Shown here one piece after another: positions 4,980-19,976 of a DNA stretch of 21,688 nt. A model generated the notes under the pieces. It was not told the origin of the DNA. It ran no database searches and saw only the letters and a list, made by a program, of their open reading frames with translations. Each line of letters begins with the position of its first letter. Position 1 is the first letter of the stretch. This stretch comes from a virus: positions 1-21,688 of IMG/VR virus record IMGVR_UViG_3300025110_000157; one strand, 5' to 3'. Position numbers and translations under genes: made by a program.

Positions 4980-6406
4980 GCATAATCGACAGAGCAAAAA
5001 CGGCGGCCCGTGTGCTGTTCGGCTACGAGGCAATCGCAAACACACGTTATCGCCGCACGCGCGGCGTTGACCCGTTGCGCGGTGAAGAGGTCGAGTTGCA
5101 GGGATACGACCGTGATCGGTTGGTTTCTACCCTGCTAAACCTCAAGCGCAACGATCCTGTCGCAAAGGCAATCTCGCGACTGCGACGCACCGACGTTGTG
5201 GGCGGCGGCATAATCCCCCAGCCATCAACGGGCGACGATTCGACTGACGATCAGATTAGCGAGTTGTGGGCGCAATGGTCGGCCATGCCTGAAGTAACTT
5301 GCACGATGGACATGACCCAACTGCAACAAGAGATTGCAGACGCGCCGCTTTTCTTTGGTGACATTGGCGTGCTGCTGACTCGTGGCGGGCGCGTGCAGCT
5401 AATCGAGGGCGACCGCATCGGGTCGCCTACGCTTTCGGCGTCGGAAAGCAACCCCAACAAAAACGGCGTAATCGTCGGCCCAGCGGGCAAGCCGCGCACT
5501 TACCAGATCGGCGACCGGATCAACGGCACGCTGAAAAATTTCAGAGACGTTCCCGCGCGTAATTTTCTTTTGTTTTACAAGCGGATGAGGCCGCAGCAAT
5601 GGCGAGGGATTCCGGAGCTTGCGCCGTGCGTCAACAGTTTGCAAGACGTTCGCGAATACGAAGCCATCGAAATGATTTCGGCCAAGGTTAGCGCGTCGCT
5701 GGCTGCCGTTATCAAGCGACAGGATTCGGTGCAGTTTGAGCTTTCAAACCGACTTGACGCAAACGATCAAGATGACGTTGGCCGCCTTGAAAGATTTGAG
5801 ACAGGCAAGTTTCATTACCTTGAGCCAAACGAATCAATCGAAACAATCAGCGCAAACGGTCGGCCAAACGTGGACGGCATACAGTTTGTGATGTATCACC
5901 TGCGCAAGGTCGGCGCGGCGGTTGGCATTCCGGTTGAGATGATCATGTCAACAATCGGCGAGTCATCTTTCAGCGCGTCGCAAGGTTTGATCTTGCAATA
6001 TCAAAGCGCGATCGAGGACAACCAAAGACAGGTTGCCGCTTTCCTCAACCGGATTTATCGGTGGAAACTCGGCCAATGGGTTGCCAACGGAATGCTGACA
6101 CCGCCGCAAAATATCAACCTATTTTCCTGCCGCTGGCAGACGCCAGCCTTTCGCTGGGTAAACAAGGCCGCGCAGGTCAAAGCCGATGCCGCATACGTTC
6201 AAATGGGCGCGCAATCCCTTGACGATGTGGCGAGTCAATTCGGGTACACCGCAGAGGCGTCAATGAGGCGTAAAGCGCAAAACATTCGGCAAGCTCAACA
6301 GATCGCCGAAGAGTTTGGCCTTGATGATTGGCGCGACCTGTTCAATCAATTTAACACAACCGCACAAGTCAACTTGACAGAGTTGATGGGAACCGAGGAG
6401 CAATAA
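4976..6406 (+). CDS. Portal protein, lambda gpB family
   Basis: This 476-residue protein forms the dodecameric ring at one capsid vertex through which DNA passes. The N-terminus (RYRRTRG, then DRDRLVSTLLNLKRNDPVAKAISRLRRTDVVGGGI) and the middle segments QLIEGDRIG, ARNFLLFYKRMRPQQWRGIPELAPCVNSL and FHYLEPNESIETIS are typical of the lambda-type portal family, as is VGIPVEMIMSTIGESSFSASQ near residue 320. The ATG at 4976 overlaps the gpW-like stop (ATGA) and is preferred to TTG at 4970. Length fits the family. Confidence 0.92.
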   Translation: MSIIDRAKTAARVLFGYEAIANTRYRRTRGVDPLRGEEVELQGYDRDRLVSTLLNLKRNDPVAKAISRLRRTDVVGGGIIPQPSTGDDSTDDQISELWAQWSAMPEVTCTMDMTQLQQEIADAPLFFGDIGVLLTRGGRVQLIEGDRIGSPTLSASESNPNKNGVIVGPAGKPRTYQIGDRINGTLKNFRDVPARNFLLFYKRMRPQQWRGIPELAPCVNSLQDVREYEAIEMISAKVSASLAAVIKRQDSVQFELSNRLDANDQDDVGRLERFETGKFHYLEPNESIETISANGRPNVDGIQFVMYHLRKVGAAVGIPVEMIMSTIGESSFSASQGLILQYQSAIEDNQRQVAAFLNRIYRWKLGQWVANGMLTPPQNINLFSCRWQTPAFRWVNKAAQVKADAAYVQMGAQSLDDVASQFGYTAEASMRRKAQNIRQAQQIAEEFGLDDWRDLFNQFNTTAQVNLTELMGTEEQ

Positions 6407-13849: not shown

Positions 13850-14491
13850 ATGCCAAGAAACGACGACGCACCAAATACCGGATGGCAAACCGCTGTTGAA
13901 GTTTCCAGCGTGCCAAGAATCCTGACCCCGTTTTCAGGCATTGGAGACACGAGCGCGAAAATTTACGAACGTGACTTCATTCAAAACGGCGATTACTGGA
14001 CACCCCTCGCGCTTGATACCGCTGACGGTGTTTTTACTAGCGCGTTTCTTATCGAGGAAACGCAGCCGCAACAATTTGGAAATGGGCTTGTGAAATGGAC
14101 TCGACGTTTCGGAACAGTGCCCAGCACGTTTTCACATTATAGCGCGGAGCAGTTCACTTTTTTTGGCTATTATGATAGCTATGAGACAAACACCAGCTAC
14201 CGCGACCCATACCCGCGCGCAACTGTCACCGAAATAACAAACACATTCATCAAGTCAACCGATCCGGAAACTGATTTTCCTTTTGCGTCTGGGGATCAAA
14301 AGTTATTAAGTCAAAACAATCGCGGCGAATTTGTTGGATACGTTGACGGCAACACGACGCCGACAATCTCAACTTATCAAGGCTATGTTTCGGCCAACAC
14401 TCAAATCGTTATTCGTGACCCACTAATCGAGCGTTGTTACGGAAGCGGAAACATCTGGCGCAAACAAGTTTACAAAGCCGAAGCGCAATAA
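13850..14491 (+). CDS. Tail-tip structural protein of unknown fold
   Basis: This 213-residue, aromatic- and Thr-rich beta protein was not assigned to a family. Its segments include IYERDFIQNGDYWTPLALDT, FLIEETQPQQFGNGLVKWTRRFGTVP, FFGYYDSYETNTSYRDPYP and GYVDGNTTPTISTYQGYVSANT. It lies between the tape measure and the fibre genes, so a distal tail or fibre-attachment role is likely. AAGGG stands before the ATG. No large lambda J-like tip protein occurs in the window, which suggests a simple tail tip. Confidence 0.6.
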   Translation: MPRNDDAPNTGWQTAVEVSSVPRILTPFSGIGDTSAKIYERDFIQNGDYWTPLALDTADGVFTSAFLIEETQPQQFGNGLVKWTRRFGTVPSTFSHYSAEQFTFFGYYDSYETNTSYRDPYPRATVTEITNTFIKSTDPETDFPFASGDQKLLSQNNRGEFVGYVDGNTTPTISTYQGYVSANTQIVIRDPLIERCYGSGNIWRKQVYKAEAQ

Positions 14492-14494
14492 AAA

Positions 14495-16387
14495 ATGTCT
14501 GTCCAAAATTCAACAGGTTTGTCATCTCGTGCAAATGAGGGTTACAAGTTTGGCGGCACTTTCTCCCTTGGCACTTCTCCGACATTGCTGGACAGCATTG
14601 AAGCGCGGCGCGTCCAGCGGTTTATTGAAAGCATGGTTTTTAGGTCAGCGTTTGACATTAACACGGGAACGCCCGCAGCAAATCAATTCATTGCAGACTT
14701 TTCAAACAGCGAGGCGGTCAAGTGGCGGCTCGATCTTCAAACAGCTTTGCGTTACGACCGCGAGCCGAGGCTAGGCGCAAATCTAGACTTGCGCGGGCAT
14801 GATATACTTTTTCGCGAGCTTTCGCGCTTGGTTCAATGGGGCGCAAATGGTTTTCAGTTTCACCCGCAAAACTACCCAGCCAACACCGACGCCGATTTGC
14901 GCGTGATCCTCAAGTTGTTCGCTTGGGATTCTGACAACCCTTATCACGTCGGTTTCAAAACTGCATCGGCAAGCGACTTGGCGGGGAGCGGATCACTTGA
15001 CGCAGACAACGGGATTGTGTGGACGTTGCCGCACGAGGACGGCACAAGTGGGCAAGTGCTGCAAACGGACGGCAGCCGAATCTTGTCTTGGGTTGACGGA
15101 GGCAGCGGGCAAAACTTTGGGATCATTTCAATCGCGGGGCAAAGCGATGTTGAGGCTGATCAAAGCAAGGACACGCTCACGCTGATTGCTGGCACTGGCA
15201 TCAGCTTGACGACAGACGCCGCAGCGGATTCGGTGACGATAACAAACACCGACTATGGCGGCGGCACGCTTACGGTTACAGAGCAAGACGGCACGCCCAG
15301 CGTTGCCAATGTCACGACAATCAAATTCAATAACGGCAGCGTGACAGATGACGGCAGCGGAGTTGTTTCTGTTTCCAGTGGCGGCCCCAATGTTGGTGAT
15401 GGAACAATAACAGTAACTTCTCCTTCTTCTTTAAGATTTTCAAATGATTGTGTAACAGAATCGCCAACAGGCGTTGCTAGAGTTTATACAGGTAGGCCAA
15501 TAAATCTTGCTACTACGGGCAACGGCGTAGCAGTAGGCACTTCAGTTGAAACTTACAAATCGGCATCTGTTGGTTATGAGCAATATCATTTCATTGCGGC
15601 AGATGGAATGAAATTTGAGGCCACTGGCAGCGGCACCTCGCAATCGCTTGAAATAAGCGCGCAGTATACAACCGTAGGCACAGACGGCAATAGTTTTGAT
15701 TTTCGTTGCGGCGATGAACTTGCATTCAAAGGCGGCAATGGAATCACTACCTCTTACACCGCTGCGTCATATCCTTATTGGGTAAATCTTGAGGTGAGTG
15801 ATGACGTTGTGCAAAACATCAATTCGATTGCAGCGGTTGGAAATAATTTTGACATTACCGCAGGGTCAGGAATTTCAATAACTGGCGGTACTGCTGAAAT
15901 TACTATTGATTCAGACGTTGCAAATATAGTAGCGGGGACAAATATATCTGTCTCGCAAGATGGGTCAGAGTTCACGATCACCAACGACAAAAGCGCAATC
16001 GTCAAAAGCGTAGACCCTGACCCTGACGCATACGTTGCGGTTTACTGCGATGAATCTCCAGAGGTTAGGTTCAACGATATTCTAACAATCGACAACATTT
16101 CAGAGCATGAAATTGAAACCAAACTTTGCGCGGAGTACGTCCATTCATGTGAGGAGAATACGATCAAAGTCATTGGTCATGCGGCAAGTGATCCTTGCCT
16201 TGTTGGGTTTGCTGTTGATGGTGATTCTCTCTTGCTAAAATTTGCGCACGCAATGCCGTTGCCTGAATCTGTCAACGTTCACTTGTCCGGAATCCGCAAA
16301 GGCTTTGACGGCAAAAGGCATCAACCGAAAACGCTTGAACAAGCGAAACAGAATGATGCATTTTGGGGGTCGGCATATTCTAAATGA
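14495..16387 (+). CDS. Tail fibre protein
   Basis: This 630-residue protein has an N-terminal part (about 1-175) that may anchor to the tail, then VLQTDGSRILSWVDGG (188-203), a sequence common in phage fibres, then beta repeats such as AGTGISLTTDAAADSVTITNT (232-252), TDDGSGVVSVSSGG (284-297), AGSGISITGGTAEITIDSD and AGTNISVSQDGSEFTITND. This pattern suggests a trimeric beta-structured fibre. The stretch encoded by about 15390-15960 is AT-richer than both flanks, as if a shaft segment had been exchanged. The C-terminal 120 residues (from about IVKSVDPDPDAYVAVYCDE) form a distinct region with four Cys. The stop overlaps the glycosyltransferase start by ATGA. Confidence 0.8.
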   Translation: MSVQNSTGLSSRANEGYKFGGTFSLGTSPTLLDSIEARRVQRFIESMVFRSAFDINTGTPAANQFIADFSNSEAVKWRLDLQTALRYDREPRLGANLDLRGHDILFRELSRLVQWGANGFQFHPQNYPANTDADLRVILKLFAWDSDNPYHVGFKTASASDLAGSGSLDADNGIVWTLPHEDGTSGQVLQTDGSRILSWVDGGSGQNFGIISIAGQSDVEADQSKDTLTLIAGTGISLTTDAAADSVTITNTDYGGGTLTVTEQDGTPSVANVTTIKFNNGSVTDDGSGVVSVSSGGPNVGDGTITVTSPSSLRFSNDCVTESPTGVARVYTGRPINLATTGNGVAVGTSVETYKSASVGYEQYHFIAADGMKFEATGSGTSQSLEISAQYTTVGTDGNSFDFRCGDELAFKGGNGITTSYTAASYPYWVNLEVSDDVVQNINSIAAVGNNFDITAGSGISITGGTAEITIDSDVANIVAGTNISVSQDGSEFTITNDKSAIVKSVDPDPDAYVAVYCDESPEVRFNDILTIDNISEHEIETKLCAEYVHSCEENTIKVIGHAASDPCLVGFAVDGDSLLLKFAHAMPLPESVNVHLSGIRKGFDGKRHQPKTLEQAKQNDAFWGSAYSK

Positions 16388-17484
16388 TCCACGAAAACCC
16401 CAAGTTGTTTGTTGTCATTCTTGGCGACCTTGGCGAGCGTTGCTTTGACGCTTTAGATTCGCGCTTTCCCGCGCTCCAGAATGGCGCACAAGCGTTTTTG
16501 TTTGCTTCCGCTAGTGGGAACAAGGTTGACATATTGAACGCCTCACAATGGGCATCTCATCGCGGGCAAGAGCATTTGACCGCGTGCTTTGATTGTGGTG
16601 ACGAATCGGTTGCGCTGGGCGCGGCTTGCACGGTCGCCCGTCCTTTCACAAGTCGAGGCTATGAGATCGAGCCTGTTTGGGTTCGCGGCAAGATTGAAAA
16701 GCCAAAGCGTATCAAATCCTTTTCCGTTGTTGCAACTCAGGAGGTTGCGCAAGAGGCCGCGATTTTGATCGCGTCGCTGCGAACATTCCACGCCGACCCG
16801 ATTTTTGTTTTCTGCGATGAGGACGCAAAGGCGTTGATCAAGTCGCACAATTTTGACGGCGTAGAGTTCAAGACTGAGGCAGACGAAAAAACACTGGCAG
16901 CGCATAGCGACCGCTTGGCTGGCAAGGTCGCAGCCAAAAACAGCTTTCATCGTGTCGATTGTATCGCCGCGAAAATGGACGCTTGGCAATGGGCGATTGA
17001 TGAAGCGGGCGCGAGTCTATTCCTTGACGCTGATATTGTTGCCGTCTCAAACCTCAACGGCGGAATGCGGGGCGAGGTTATTTTGTCGCCGCACTATCAT
17101 GGCGTTCCGAAGCTGGAACCCGCGCGCGACTTTGGAATTTTTAACGCGGGCTACATCTGGAGCGACCAACCGGACGCACCAAAAGTTTGGCGTGAAATCT
17201 ACGAGGGCAAGTCTAGGTTTTTTGAACAAGAGGGCATGACACTTTTTGCGCAGCACTTTGACGTCAGCTTTTACTCGCCAGATCACAACGTTGGCTTTTG
17301 GCGCGATCCAGATTTTGATTTGAACGTGCGAAGCTGGCACGCGCACATGACCGACGCGCTCGACGAAAAAGCAAACAACGGGTTGCGCGTCAAATACCAA
17401 GAACACCGCAAGCGCGTTTTTGATTGGCTCGAATATCAAGGGCGCGACGATCTGATTGATTTTATCGAATGCGTGAAAAAATAA
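16384..17484 (+). CDS. Glycosyltransferase-like protein, GT-A type
   Basis: This 366-residue protein has a GT-A signature: an N-terminal nucleotide-fold strand (KSFSVVATQE, IASLRTFHADPIFVFCDED, 129-146) and ASLFLDADIVAVSNL with D215-A-D217, the metal and nucleotide-sugar binding DxD motif, as in GT8-like enzymes. Downstream FNAGYIWSDQP (253-263) resembles the acceptor-side NAG motif of that family. The first 110 residues form an unassigned region. It would be a cytosolic sugar transferase. The start overlaps the fibre stop (ATGA) and the end overlaps the next gene by 16 bases, so all three are coupled. The acceptor could be the fibre itself or a host surface glycan; the sequence does not decide. 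Confidence 0.75.
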   Translation: MIHENPKLFVVILGDLGERCFDALDSRFPALQNGAQAFLFASASGNKVDILNASQWASHRGQEHLTACFDCGDESVALGAACTVARPFTSRGYEIEPVWVRGKIEKPKRIKSFSVVATQEVAQEAAILIASLRTFHADPIFVFCDEDAKALIKSHNFDGVEFKTEADEKTLAAHSDRLAGKVAAKNSFHRVDCIAAKMDAWQWAIDEAGASLFLDADIVAVSNLNGGMRGEVILSPHYHGVPKLEPARDFGIFNAGYIWSDQPDAPKVWREIYEGKSRFFEQEGMTLFAQHFDVSFYSPDHNVGFWRDPDFDLNVRSWHAHMTDALDEKANNGLRVKYQEHRKRVFDWLEYQGRDDLIDFIECVKK

Positions 17485-18170
17485 TCTTTTGCCATTACGG
17501 GAAGGCGGGCGGCGTTTGGGTCAACGAATACTTGTCAAAGATGTTGCGCCGCGAAGGCTACGCAATCCGCAACTCTTTTTATATGGGCCTCGGCAGAGAC
17601 TTCACAGAGGATGAAGTCATGCACGTTGCCAACACCTGCGAAGGCTTCAAAACCTACATTCACCAACAGCACCTTTCTGTCACAAGTAAAGCCTTGTCGC
17701 ACCTGAAGAGCAAAGGCTTTTGGTCTTTCATGTTTTTGCGCCCGCCTGAAGATGTGATTTGTTCAATTTATTTTTGGGCGTTGCGAAAGATTGAGGACGG
17801 CCAGCCTTGCCCGATTGCGCCACACTTAAACCCGACCGCGATCGAGCTTGGCGATTTCTTTGAAGAGGTGTCGAAAAATAAAAAAGCACTCTGGGCGTTG
17901 CCGCCTTGGGTGAATCAAGTTGATAATGTCGCGATGATTTCAGATAATAATTTAAGGGCATTCTTGCGGCAGCATTTCGCGCATGAATACGATCCGGACA
18001 AATACGAATTGAAAGAGCGGCACATGAACAGATCAAGCAATGAAGGCTTTGCAGAGTACGCGAGGCAAGGGCGCATTACATTGGCGCAGCAATCCGCGCT
18101 TGTGGGGTCGGATGAGTTTGCGGAATTTTCAAACCTAGCGCGGAGGCTGGGACATCGGAGGGAATGGTAA
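17469..18170 (+). CDS. Sulfotransferase-like protein (PAPS-binding)
   Basis: This 233-residue protein carries the sulfotransferase pattern. IIFCHYGKAGGVWVNEYL (5-22) is the 5'-phosphosulfate loop, with K12. R91 and S99 in FLRPPEDVICS have the 8-residue spacing of the 3'-phosphate-binding Arg/Ser pair. FKTYIHQQHLS (60-70) sits where the catalytic His of cytosolic sulfotransferases lies, so H65 or H68 is a candidate. NRSS (about 187-190) resembles the Asn-Ser region near the C-terminus. The donor would be host PAPS. The gene overlaps the glycosyltransferase by 16 bases, so a sulfated sugar product is a plausible joint outcome. A family fold without activity remains possible. Confidence 0.75.
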   Translation: MREKIIFCHYGKAGGVWVNEYLSKMLRREGYAIRNSFYMGLGRDFTEDEVMHVANTCEGFKTYIHQQHLSVTSKALSHLKSKGFWSFMFLRPPEDVICSIYFWALRKIEDGQPCPIAPHLNPTAIELGDFFEEVSKNKKALWALPPWVNQVDNVAMISDNNLRAFLRQHFAHEYDPDKYELKERHMNRSSNEGFAEYARQGRITLAQQSALVGSDEFAEFSNLARRLGHRREW

Positions 18171-18383
18171 ATGGATTTGGCAAGCATTATGCAAGCGGGC
18201 TTTGCGATAGCGATCGCGGTTGGCGGGTTTTTCTTTCGGCGAATACAAAGCACGATTGACGATCAAGCTCGCCGTTTGATCGGCCTTGAAATCAAGGTTG
18301 CGAGGCAGGAACAACAAACCGAAAACTTGATTGACAGATTGGATCGAATAGAGCAAAAGATTGATCAGCTACTTAAAACATGA
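18171..18383 (+). CDS. Small membrane protein with coiled coil, lysis cluster
   Basis: This 70-residue protein has an N-terminal hydrophobic segment (MQAGFAIAIAVGGFFF, about 7-22) and then a charged coiled coil of heptads (RLIGLEIKVARQEQQTENLIDRLDRIEQKIDQLL). Start follows the sulfotransferase stop directly, and its own stop overlaps the next start (ATGA). The layout of one transmembrane helix plus a cytoplasmic or periplasmic coil fits an antiholin or XhlA-like partner, or an i-spanin-like protein. The role is inferred from neighbours. Confidence 0.6.
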   Translation: MDLASIMQAGFAIAIAVGGFFFRRIQSTIDDQARRLIGLEIKVARQEQQTENLIDRLDRIEQKIDQLLKT

Positions 18384-19214: not shown

Positions 19215-19976
19215 ATGGGCAAGGCGTGGAAAAAATTCGTTGCCGTTGGGGATAATCACGGCGCACTGATCGACCAAGACACTGCGCGCGCGGTGTTGAA
19301 GTTTTGCGATCATTGGAAACCTGACGCGCGCATTCATCTCGGCGATTGTTTTGACTTCGCAAGCCTCCGCGCTGGAATCAATCCAGACTCTGACGGCGTT
19401 GCGTGCGACGATCTCAGCGAGGATTTATTTCAGGGGTTCAAATTCTTGGAGCAGTTCAGGCCGCACGTTTATCTTGTCGGAAATCACGAGGACAGGCTTT
19501 GGCGGATTGCCTCAAGTCACACTCAAGGCGTGATGCGTTACGCTGCGCGCGATGTGATCGACCGAATCGAAAAACAGTGTAAGCGGATGCGCTGCAAGTT
19601 GTACCTGTACCATGCAGAGAACGGAGTTCATCACGAGGCAAATGGCAAGCTGGCTTTCGCGCACGGATACAGTGCCAACCAAAACGCCGTCAAGGAACAT
19701 GCCACACATTTCGCATCTGAAGGCGGCAGCGTTATCATCGGCCACTTGCACCGCGTAGAAATCCAAACAGGCAAACGCAAAGGCGGCACTCATGGATATT
19801 CTGCGGGATGCCTCGCAAACTTCGCCTCAATGGACTACGCCAAGAACAGGCTGGCAACGGCAGGTTGGGAAAACGCTTTTGCGTTTGGCGTGTGGAAAGG
19901 TGAGACTGCAAACGTGTGGATCGCGCGCAAGTGCGGCCCGCGCTGGTTACTGCCGACAGGCGTGGAGGAGTTTTAA
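19215..19976 (+). CDS. Metallophosphoesterase (calcineurin-like)
   Basis: This 253-residue protein has the full set of metal ligands of the calcineurin-like family in order: D13 and H15 in VGDNHG, D44 in LGDCFD, N90 and H91 in VGNHED, H150 in FAHGY, and H177 and H179 in IGHLHR. It should be an active two-metal phosphatase or nuclease; the substrate is unknown. The ATG has no well-spaced ribosome site. The eight codons upstream, after TAA at 19188-19190, read LGQTAQGW in the same frame, matching the MGQT start module at 4715 and 10190 but with TTA instead of ATG, so the native start may have been lost or shifted. Confidence 0.88.
   Translation: MGKAWKKFVAVGDNHGALIDQDTARAVLKFCDHWKPDARIHLGDCFDFASLRAGINPDSDGVACDDLSEDLFQGFKFLEQFRPHVYLVGNHEDRLWRIASSHTQGVMRYAARDVIDRIEKQCKRMRCKLYLYHAENGVHHEANGKLAFAHGYSANQNAVKEHATHFASEGGSVIIGHLHRVEIQTGKRKGGTHGYSAGCLANFASMDYAKNRLATAGWENAFAFGVWKGETANVWIARKCGPRWLLPTGVEEF

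Follow-up and report, generated by a model that had tools for sequence, protein, structure and literature searches.

Conserved fibre, glycosyltransferase and sulfotransferase genes suggest a late sulfated-glycan decoration cassette in small siphovirus-like phages

Phage sulfotransferases have been described as auxiliary metabolic genes in the OM43-phage group, whose MVGs carry PF13469 proteins, and the part of that report consulted calls the role of such enzymes in phage genomes unclear (PMC10580990). Sulfotransferases are also reported in glacier-ice viruses (PMC8290583, in the part consulted). Glycosylation of the virion is described for mycobacteriophages, whose capsids and tails are O-glycosylated (Freeman 2023, as described in the consulted part of PMC11652166). 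Here, we analyzed a window of 21,688 nucleotides of viral DNA, which matches base for base the start of a contig of 34,336 bases (G001) and in which a tail-fibre gene is followed by a putative glycosyltransferase (GT), a putative sulfotransferase (ST) and a holin-like gene, as listed below.

13850..14491, + strand: tail protein of 213 aa that precedes the fibre, a module marker kept in all four lineages
14495-16387, + strand: fibre ORF, with N-terminal homology to Peptidase_S74-type fibres
14495..15418, + strand: N-terminal/shaft part of the fibre, approximately aa 1-308, common to the lineages
15419..16387, + strand: distal half of the fibre, type A (KSAIVKS...HLSGIRKG...FWGSAY)
16384..17484, + strand: putative GT, 366 aa, orthologs 48-50% identical
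16384..16695, + strand: N-terminal beta-alpha domain of the GT, kin to the front half of the GT2 fold (pLDDT ~70-90)
17026..17034, + strand: GT DxD motif D215-A216-D217, invariant in the three-lineage alignment
17469..18170, + strand: putative PAPS-dependent ST, 233 aa, orthologs 91-100% and 33-37% identical
17493..17516, + strand: ST 5'-phosphosulfate loop HYGKAGGV with K12, from the alignment
17661..17672, + strand: ST H65-Q66-x-H68, invariant in the alignment
17739..17765, + strand: ST 3'-phosphate site R91-P-P-E-D-V-I-C-S99, from the alignment of three lineages
18171..18383, + strand: holin-like gene, 70 aa, closing the cassette and directly behind the fibre in the GT-less relative

The initial annotation had read fibre, GT and ST as a coupled trio, and the ORF coordinates agree with the overlaps that it gave (4 bases, ATGA, between fibre and GT; 16 bases between GT and ST). 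As evidence of coupling, overlap was set aside as generic, given that 10 of the 28 consecutive gene pairs in the window overlap. The order of the three genes and their overlaps recur in three distantly related lineages (GT 48-50% and ST 33-37% identical), a recurrence that, at such protein identities, exceeds chance. Both enzymes are under strong purifying selection, with dN/dS within the window's lineage of 0.05-0.07 for GT and 0.08-0.09 for ST. The direct neighbours of the pair are the fibre and holin-like genes, and the 213-aa tail protein upstream is 64% identical in one ortholog-bearing genome (G011), 38-44% in the third lineage (G012/G013) and 32% in a GT-less relative (L060). Together, these observations support fibre, GT and ST as a conserved late unit. 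Scanning viral sequences with the ST alignment of the three lineages added no other lineage, two scans of genome contigs with GT alignments found no bacterial relative, and neither window protein had a tblastn match in 50,697 phage records. The GT-less relative is collinear with the window's phage and equally close in capsid, and it has the same holin-like gene 40 nt behind its fibre. Because this close relative is without both enzymes, we regard the GT-ST pair as accessory; the enzymes are therefore dispensable for assembly in this phage group.

The window fibre had no family match of its own, and the fibre call was made because its N-terminal part is common to proteins ending in a Peptidase_S74 fibre chaperone, including that of G013, a fibre of the S74 type (PF13884 at 60.8 bits, with phrog matches to fibres). 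Residues 3-201 retain 41% identity even with the fibre of the GT-less relative. The distal half behaves differently: type A is replaced by the Peptidase_S74 type in G002, G003 and G013, so that two unrelated types are exchanged among phages that retain 91-97% identity in GT and ST. Given this swap beside a near-constant GT-ST pair, the fibre tip is unlikely, as far as the sequences indicate, to be the specific substrate of the enzymes. Both the swap and the GT-less relative, which still has the same tail module, were counted against the explanation that we favour.

Neither window enzyme matched a Pfam or PHROG family (for ST, 0 Pfam families at E<=1 and no PF03567 match), and family assignment of both therefore rests on orthologs. 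For the GT, the initial annotation had pointed to D215-A-D217, and the residues stand at those positions: D215 and D217 are invariant in three lineages, as is the surrounding LFLDADI, which places the DxD in a hydrophobic strand. Glycos_transf_2 (PF00535) matched the G012 ortholog in its N-terminal half (E=1e-4), reaching 23.7 bits (22.6 by hmmscan) there and 22.0 bits in G013/G014 against a cut-off of 23.3; it had no match in the window GT. Glyco_transf_8 (PF01501) gave a weak E=0.007 for the G011 ortholog, and its best score, 17.1 bits in an ortholog only, missed the cut-off of 24.3. An AlphaFold (AF2) model of the GT had a pLDDT of 52, with only residues 1-100 good, and a PDB fold search with it returned no match at E<=0.001. 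Profile-profile comparison with Escherichia coli WaaJ/WaaO aligned the DxD stretch only (probability 8.9%, weak), and GT-B and kinase controls scored lower. These data support GT-A-type features in the predicted protein of the second gene; its placement in a particular family is weak. Neither GT nor ST has a transmembrane stretch (maximum KD19 for GT, 1.44), which was counted in favour of our explanation, since O-antigen conversion by lipid carrier differs in this respect.

The third gene is better placed through its orthologs. The ortholog at the same place in another lineage (33% identical) matched PF03567 (Sulfotransfer_2) at 28.3 bits against a cut-off of 22, those of G006 and G011 scored 27.5 bits, and the 33%-identical ortholog also matched phrog_3347, "Galactose-3-O-sulfotransferase" (2.4e-8). 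The initial annotation expected an HMM search to place this protein among sulfotransferases; the ortholog passed the PF03567 cut-off, whereas the window protein itself had no match. The GKAGG loop, K12 and R91/S99 were confirmed at the positions that had been given. K12, G15, R91 and S99 are invariant in three lineages with R91 and S99 spaced as R-x7-S, as are P93, D95, I97 and C98 and both H65 and H68; H65-Q66-x-H68 may be the region of the catalytic base. Position 16 of the phosphate loop, usually Thr, is Val in the window ST and in G012/G013, and Thr in two 91-93% identical relatives and in G011/G006. A PDB sequence search with an ST profile returned sulfotransferases in 7 of 9 matches (E 0.14-0.18), all of them hydroxysteroid, bile-salt or alcohol sulfotransferase entries that seem to be one protein, presumably SULT2A1, and count as a single weak match. 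The AlphaFold model of ST, built from four near-identical sequences, was unusable (pLDDT 34.6). Taken together, the ortholog matches and invariant residues support a sulfotransferase-family protein. The failure of the window ST in profile searches and its V16, together with the weak placement and poor model of the GT, were counted against our explanation.

Beyond the window, G001 encodes an APS-kinase-family protein (PF01583, 43.9 vs 21.1 bits) approximately 15 kb from GT-ST, at G001:32733-33167 in the replication half. This protein scored below the NCBIfam cut-offs (TIGR00455 equivalog, 40.8 vs 138.7 bits), and its match stops at residue 93 of 144, without the C-terminal lid; it is a candidate PAPS-pathway kinase. 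Searches of G011 and G013 for an APS kinase returned none, and this absence, the sub-equivalog score and the missing lid were also entered against the favoured explanation. G011 has genes for a nucleotide-sugar epimerase (204 bits) and for a homolog of UDP-glucose/GDP-mannose dehydrogenase, and in lineage 3 a methyltransferase gene lies behind ST, with a homolog elsewhere in G001; these genes were counted in favour of our explanation. A PAPS_reduct ORF in G013 was dropped as evidence of sulfation, since phage proteins of this kind may have a part in DNA metabolism, as was argued for phage P8625 (PMC4642752). Host assignment from TerL was also rejected: its weak likeness to verrucomicrobial phage P8625 (22% identity, 1e-17) is not decisive because TerL also resembles phages of many other hosts.

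We consider the chances about even that GT-ST is a late, accessory sulfated-glycan decoration cassette whose acceptor is most likely a virion tail component. According to this explanation, the pair is an insertion, present in one group of small siphovirus-like phages, with the tail-fibre gene ahead of it and the lysis genes behind. The first step would be transfer of a sugar by the soluble GT, with a nucleotide sugar as donor; ST would next sulfate the resulting glycan with PAPS, the supply of which would be raised in the window's phage by the APS-kinase-family protein. The acceptor would be a tail component made simultaneously, the exchangeable tip being a less likely one than the conserved shaft of the fibre or a different tail protein. 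A charged, sulfated coat may tune adsorption, for example through less binding to debris or competing polysaccharides. Enzyme activity, reaction order, acceptor and benefit are what we infer from the gene content. More tentative is the fuller version, in which the phage itself produces the sulfate donor and, in two steps, coats its tail with a sulfated glycan, with a methylation cap possible in the sister lineage. The initial annotation had proposed that sugar and then sulfate are added to the fibre or to a host glycan; the chemistry gained from the ST family, the GT-A features, the conserved late unit and the candidate PAPS kinase, whereas the fibre as target lost ground, with a distal half that swaps and a close relative that is without the enzymes. 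None of our observations speaks for the escape from polysaccharide-binding defence that it had also raised.

It is rather unlikely that the acceptor is a glycan of the host surface, or the cytoplasmic precursor of one, though several observations would suit this. Modification there would be a sulfated analogue of serotype conversion, and GT-ST stays constant while fibre tips swap, the nucleotide-sugar enzymes of G011 are typical of surface polysaccharide synthesis, and variable methyltransferases occupy the same slot, as in glycan decoration loci. The benefit would then be progeny that adhere neither to debris nor to siblings, or exclusion of other phages. However, no flippase or GtrABC-type membrane GT lies beside the pair, GT and ST have no transmembrane segment, and the genes belong to the late module, where fibre and GT overlap. 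Lysogenic conversion in particular is unlikely, because none of the ORFs scanned in the latter half of G001 was recognised as an integrase.

Action on DNA, nucleotides or a small metabolite, with the fibre adjacency accidental, is improbable. Nucleotides have been proposed as substrates of phage sulfotransferases and GTs (PMC10829341), and the replication half contains the APS-kinase-like gene; however, in three lineages the pair stays where it is within the tail/lysis module, and the scanned ORFs included no recognised DNA-hypermodification gene. Least probable is an inactive pair, in which GT would be degenerate, with half of a GT2 domain, and the sulfotransferase fold would serve another purpose, e.g., binding. 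Although V16 and the lack of profile matches in the window ST would fit this, the N-terminal GT2-like half of GT is degenerate in two lineages and the APS-kinase-like protein has no lid, selection is strongly purifying and the motif residues are invariant over 33-50% identity.

The sulfated-glycan decoration that we favour differs from each described system. The OM43-group and glacier-ice enzymes and AAY80_051 of Stenotrophomonas phage DLP6 are likewise phage-encoded sulfotransferases, of unknown role in the parts of the reports consulted, in which we saw none placed in a fixed fibre-GT-ST unit alongside an APS-kinase homolog. AAY80_051 lies among replication genes, whereas the window ST lies behind fibre and GT, and the OM43-group enzymes belong to PF13469 (in the part consulted), whereas the ortholog of the window ST belongs to PF03567. 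With PF03567 and phrog_3347 the ST shares the P-loop lysine, the R-x7-S site and an ortholog above the curated cut-off; the window protein itself falls below detection, and its context is the fibre-GT-ST unit. The GT8 LPS glucosyltransferases WaaJ/WaaO have an LDAD motif in a comparable place, but the alignment spans 25 residues only and the window GT has an extra N-terminal GT2-like domain. Mycobacteriophages also encode GTs, with O-glycosylated capsid and tail; sulfate is not mentioned in the consulted part of that report (PMC11652166), and the glycan of the window system is a predicted one. GtrABC O-antigen conversion is likewise phage-borne glycan modification, and phrog_841 (GtrB-like) weakly matches the N terminus of the lineage-3 GT (E 0.13), but the window has no GtrA or membrane Gtr and no transmembrane segments in the pair, which belongs to a late module. 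The conserved unit, the empty-site relative and the APS-kinase homolog thus suggest a concrete role, sulfated glycan decoration. On the virion, this would be a phage surface chemistry that bears on adsorption, and our literature searches returned no report of it or of a sulfated phage particle; on the host, it would be a sulfated counterpart of O-antigen conversion.

The window record is a linear IMG/VR entry. It matches positions 1-21688 of a longer contig (IMGVR_UViG_3300010149_000067, hereafter G001; 34,336 bases) without a single base difference. The three open reading frames that the initial annotation had described as a coupled trio were re-derived from the sequence as claimed:

14495-16387 (+), fibre
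16384-17484 (+), putative glycosyltransferase (GT)
17469-18170 (+), putative sulfotransferase (ST)

The fibre/GT overlap of 4 bases (ATGA), the GT/ST overlap of 16 bases, and the motifs D215-A-D217 in GT and K12, R91, and S99 in ST were likewise recovered. However, overlaps are frequent in the window, where 10 of the 28 pairs of adjacent genes show one, so that they alone are no proof of a functional trio. Coupling gains support from related phages, found via the terminase and by profile search, which formed three lineages: lineage 1 (window/G001, G002, and G003; GT 96 to 100%, ST 91 to 100% identity), lineage 2 (G011 and G006; GT 48%, ST 33% identity to the window), and lineage 3 (G012, G013, and G014, the last ending inside ST; GT 50%, ST 37%). 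The order tail protein, fibre, GT, ST, holin-like gene was kept in all three, with a methyltransferase between ST and the holin-like gene in lineage 3 only. The overlaps recurred as well (fibre/GT, 4 to 19 bases; GT/ST, 11 to 16 bases); in G013, where the GT ATG lies at position 5830 of stretch L037, fibre and GT overlap by 14 bases.

The window GT and ST proteins had no matches in Pfam, PHROGs, or NCBIfam, nor by tblastn among 50,697 phage records. The claimed sulfotransferase family was instead reached through the lineage-2 ortholog, which scored above the PF03567 Sulfotransfer_2 cut-off (28.3 versus 22 bits; 27.5 bits in a six-frame search) and matched phrog_3347, Galactose-3-O-sulfotransferase (2.4e-8). 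Across the three-lineage alignment, ST K12, R91, S99, and an HQxH motif (H65, H68) were invariant; the loop Thr position is Val16 in the window and lineage 3. LFLDADI was invariant in GT, one ortholog matched Glyco_transf_8 below cut-off (E 0.007), and the N-terminal half of the lineage-3 GT matched Glycos_transf_2 (E 1e-4; 23.7 versus 23.3 bits in a separate search); GT is therefore, with moderate confidence, a predicted GT-A-like glycosyltransferase. Its structure model was of poor quality. The GT N terminus (window 16384-16695) resembles a degenerate GT2-like half-domain fused ahead of the part that carries the DxD motif; lineage 3 is the only one in which this half-domain can be recognised.

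GT/ST GC content tracks each lineage (52/49, 31/29, and 60/59% versus 51, 35, and 57.5%), so the pair shows no sign of recent acquisition, and dN/dS among lineage-1 members was 0.05 to 0.07 for GT and 0.08 to 0.09 for ST. A fourth, collinear lineage (L060/L061), with a capsid as close as that of lineage 2 (MCP 72% versus 70%), carries the same holin-like gene 40 nt after the fibre. GT and ST were absent there by searches, run without a positive record alongside, and by the gene map, which itself has no space for the pair at the fibre/holin-like site. The pair is thus an accessory insertion, or was lost in L060/L061, and is dispensable for building a virion of that kind. Nearby, a Calcineurin-like metallophosphoesterase (window 19215-19976; PF00149, phrog_221) is 73% identical in G011, with no match in the L036 (G012), L037, or L060 stretches.

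In the alignment, the fibres have about 300 N-terminal residues in common, followed by one of two unrelated distal modules exchanged between near-identical phages:

window 15419-16387 (+), type A distal half; window, G011, G006, and G012
Peptidase_S74-type distal half (Pfam match in G013, others assigned from alignment); G002, G003, G013, and GT-less L060

The type A end matched no INPHARED record. The switch occurred within lineage 1 and within lineage 3, while GT/ST there stayed about 91 to 97% identical. If the two enzymes were dedicated to the fibre tip, they should vary along with it. More probable acceptors are therefore the constant shaft, another tail protein, or a host glycan.

Further genes with possible roles in donor supply or sugar decoration were found in these phages:

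G001:32733-33167 (L043:12834-13268), beyond the window end, APS-kinase-family protein, 144 aa, best Pfam match APS_kinase
G011:2070-2969 (stretch L044), between terminase and portal genes, GalE-like epimerase, lineage 2
G011:21709-22605 (L045:5709-6605), nucleotide-sugar dehydrogenase homolog, lineage 2
L036:7700-8464 (G012) and L037:7700-8335 (G013), methyltransferases next after ST, with a four-base overlap

The first protein (APS_kinase, 43.9 bits versus a 21.1 cut-off; best PDB and NCBIfam matches likewise adenylylsulfate kinases) keeps the P-loop, DGDELR, and R-x-EN motifs. It is a candidate supplier of the sulfate donor PAPS, its activity uncertain because it lacks the C-terminal lid and falls below equivalog cut-offs. 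The G012 and G013 methyltransferases are different proteins in the same slot of otherwise near-identical phages, the former 34% identical (2e-34) to one at G001:30036-30755. This phage group thus repeatedly collects enzymes that make and decorate a sugar, and this pattern favours glycan chemistry over action on DNA or small molecules, although class I methyltransferases are generic. Separately, a PAPS_reduct-domain frame downstream of the cassette (L037:9831-10700) may be a DNA-metabolism enzyme, a role argued for such a protein of phage P8625 (PMC4642752).

Gene position suggests late expression. In the favoured reading, late in infection the fibre message would also yield GT and ST; GT would add a sugar, and ST would sulfate it using PAPS. 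We give even odds to the virion as target. The host surface, for instance a host glycan precursor, is a less probable target, and another activity, or none, is unlikely.

Phage sulfotransferases are reported as auxiliary genes of unclear function (PMC10580990, PMC8290583, and PMC10829341), and O-glycosylation has been described for virions of mycobacteriophages (Freeman 2023, cited through PMC11652166). A literature search of partial coverage returned no report of sulfated virions or a fibre-GT-ST unit. Among host-surface mechanisms, GtrABC conversion uses a flippase and a membrane-spanning glycosyltransferase, whereas in the window cassette no flippase adjoins the pair and GT and ST are without membrane segments, which speaks against conversion of that type.
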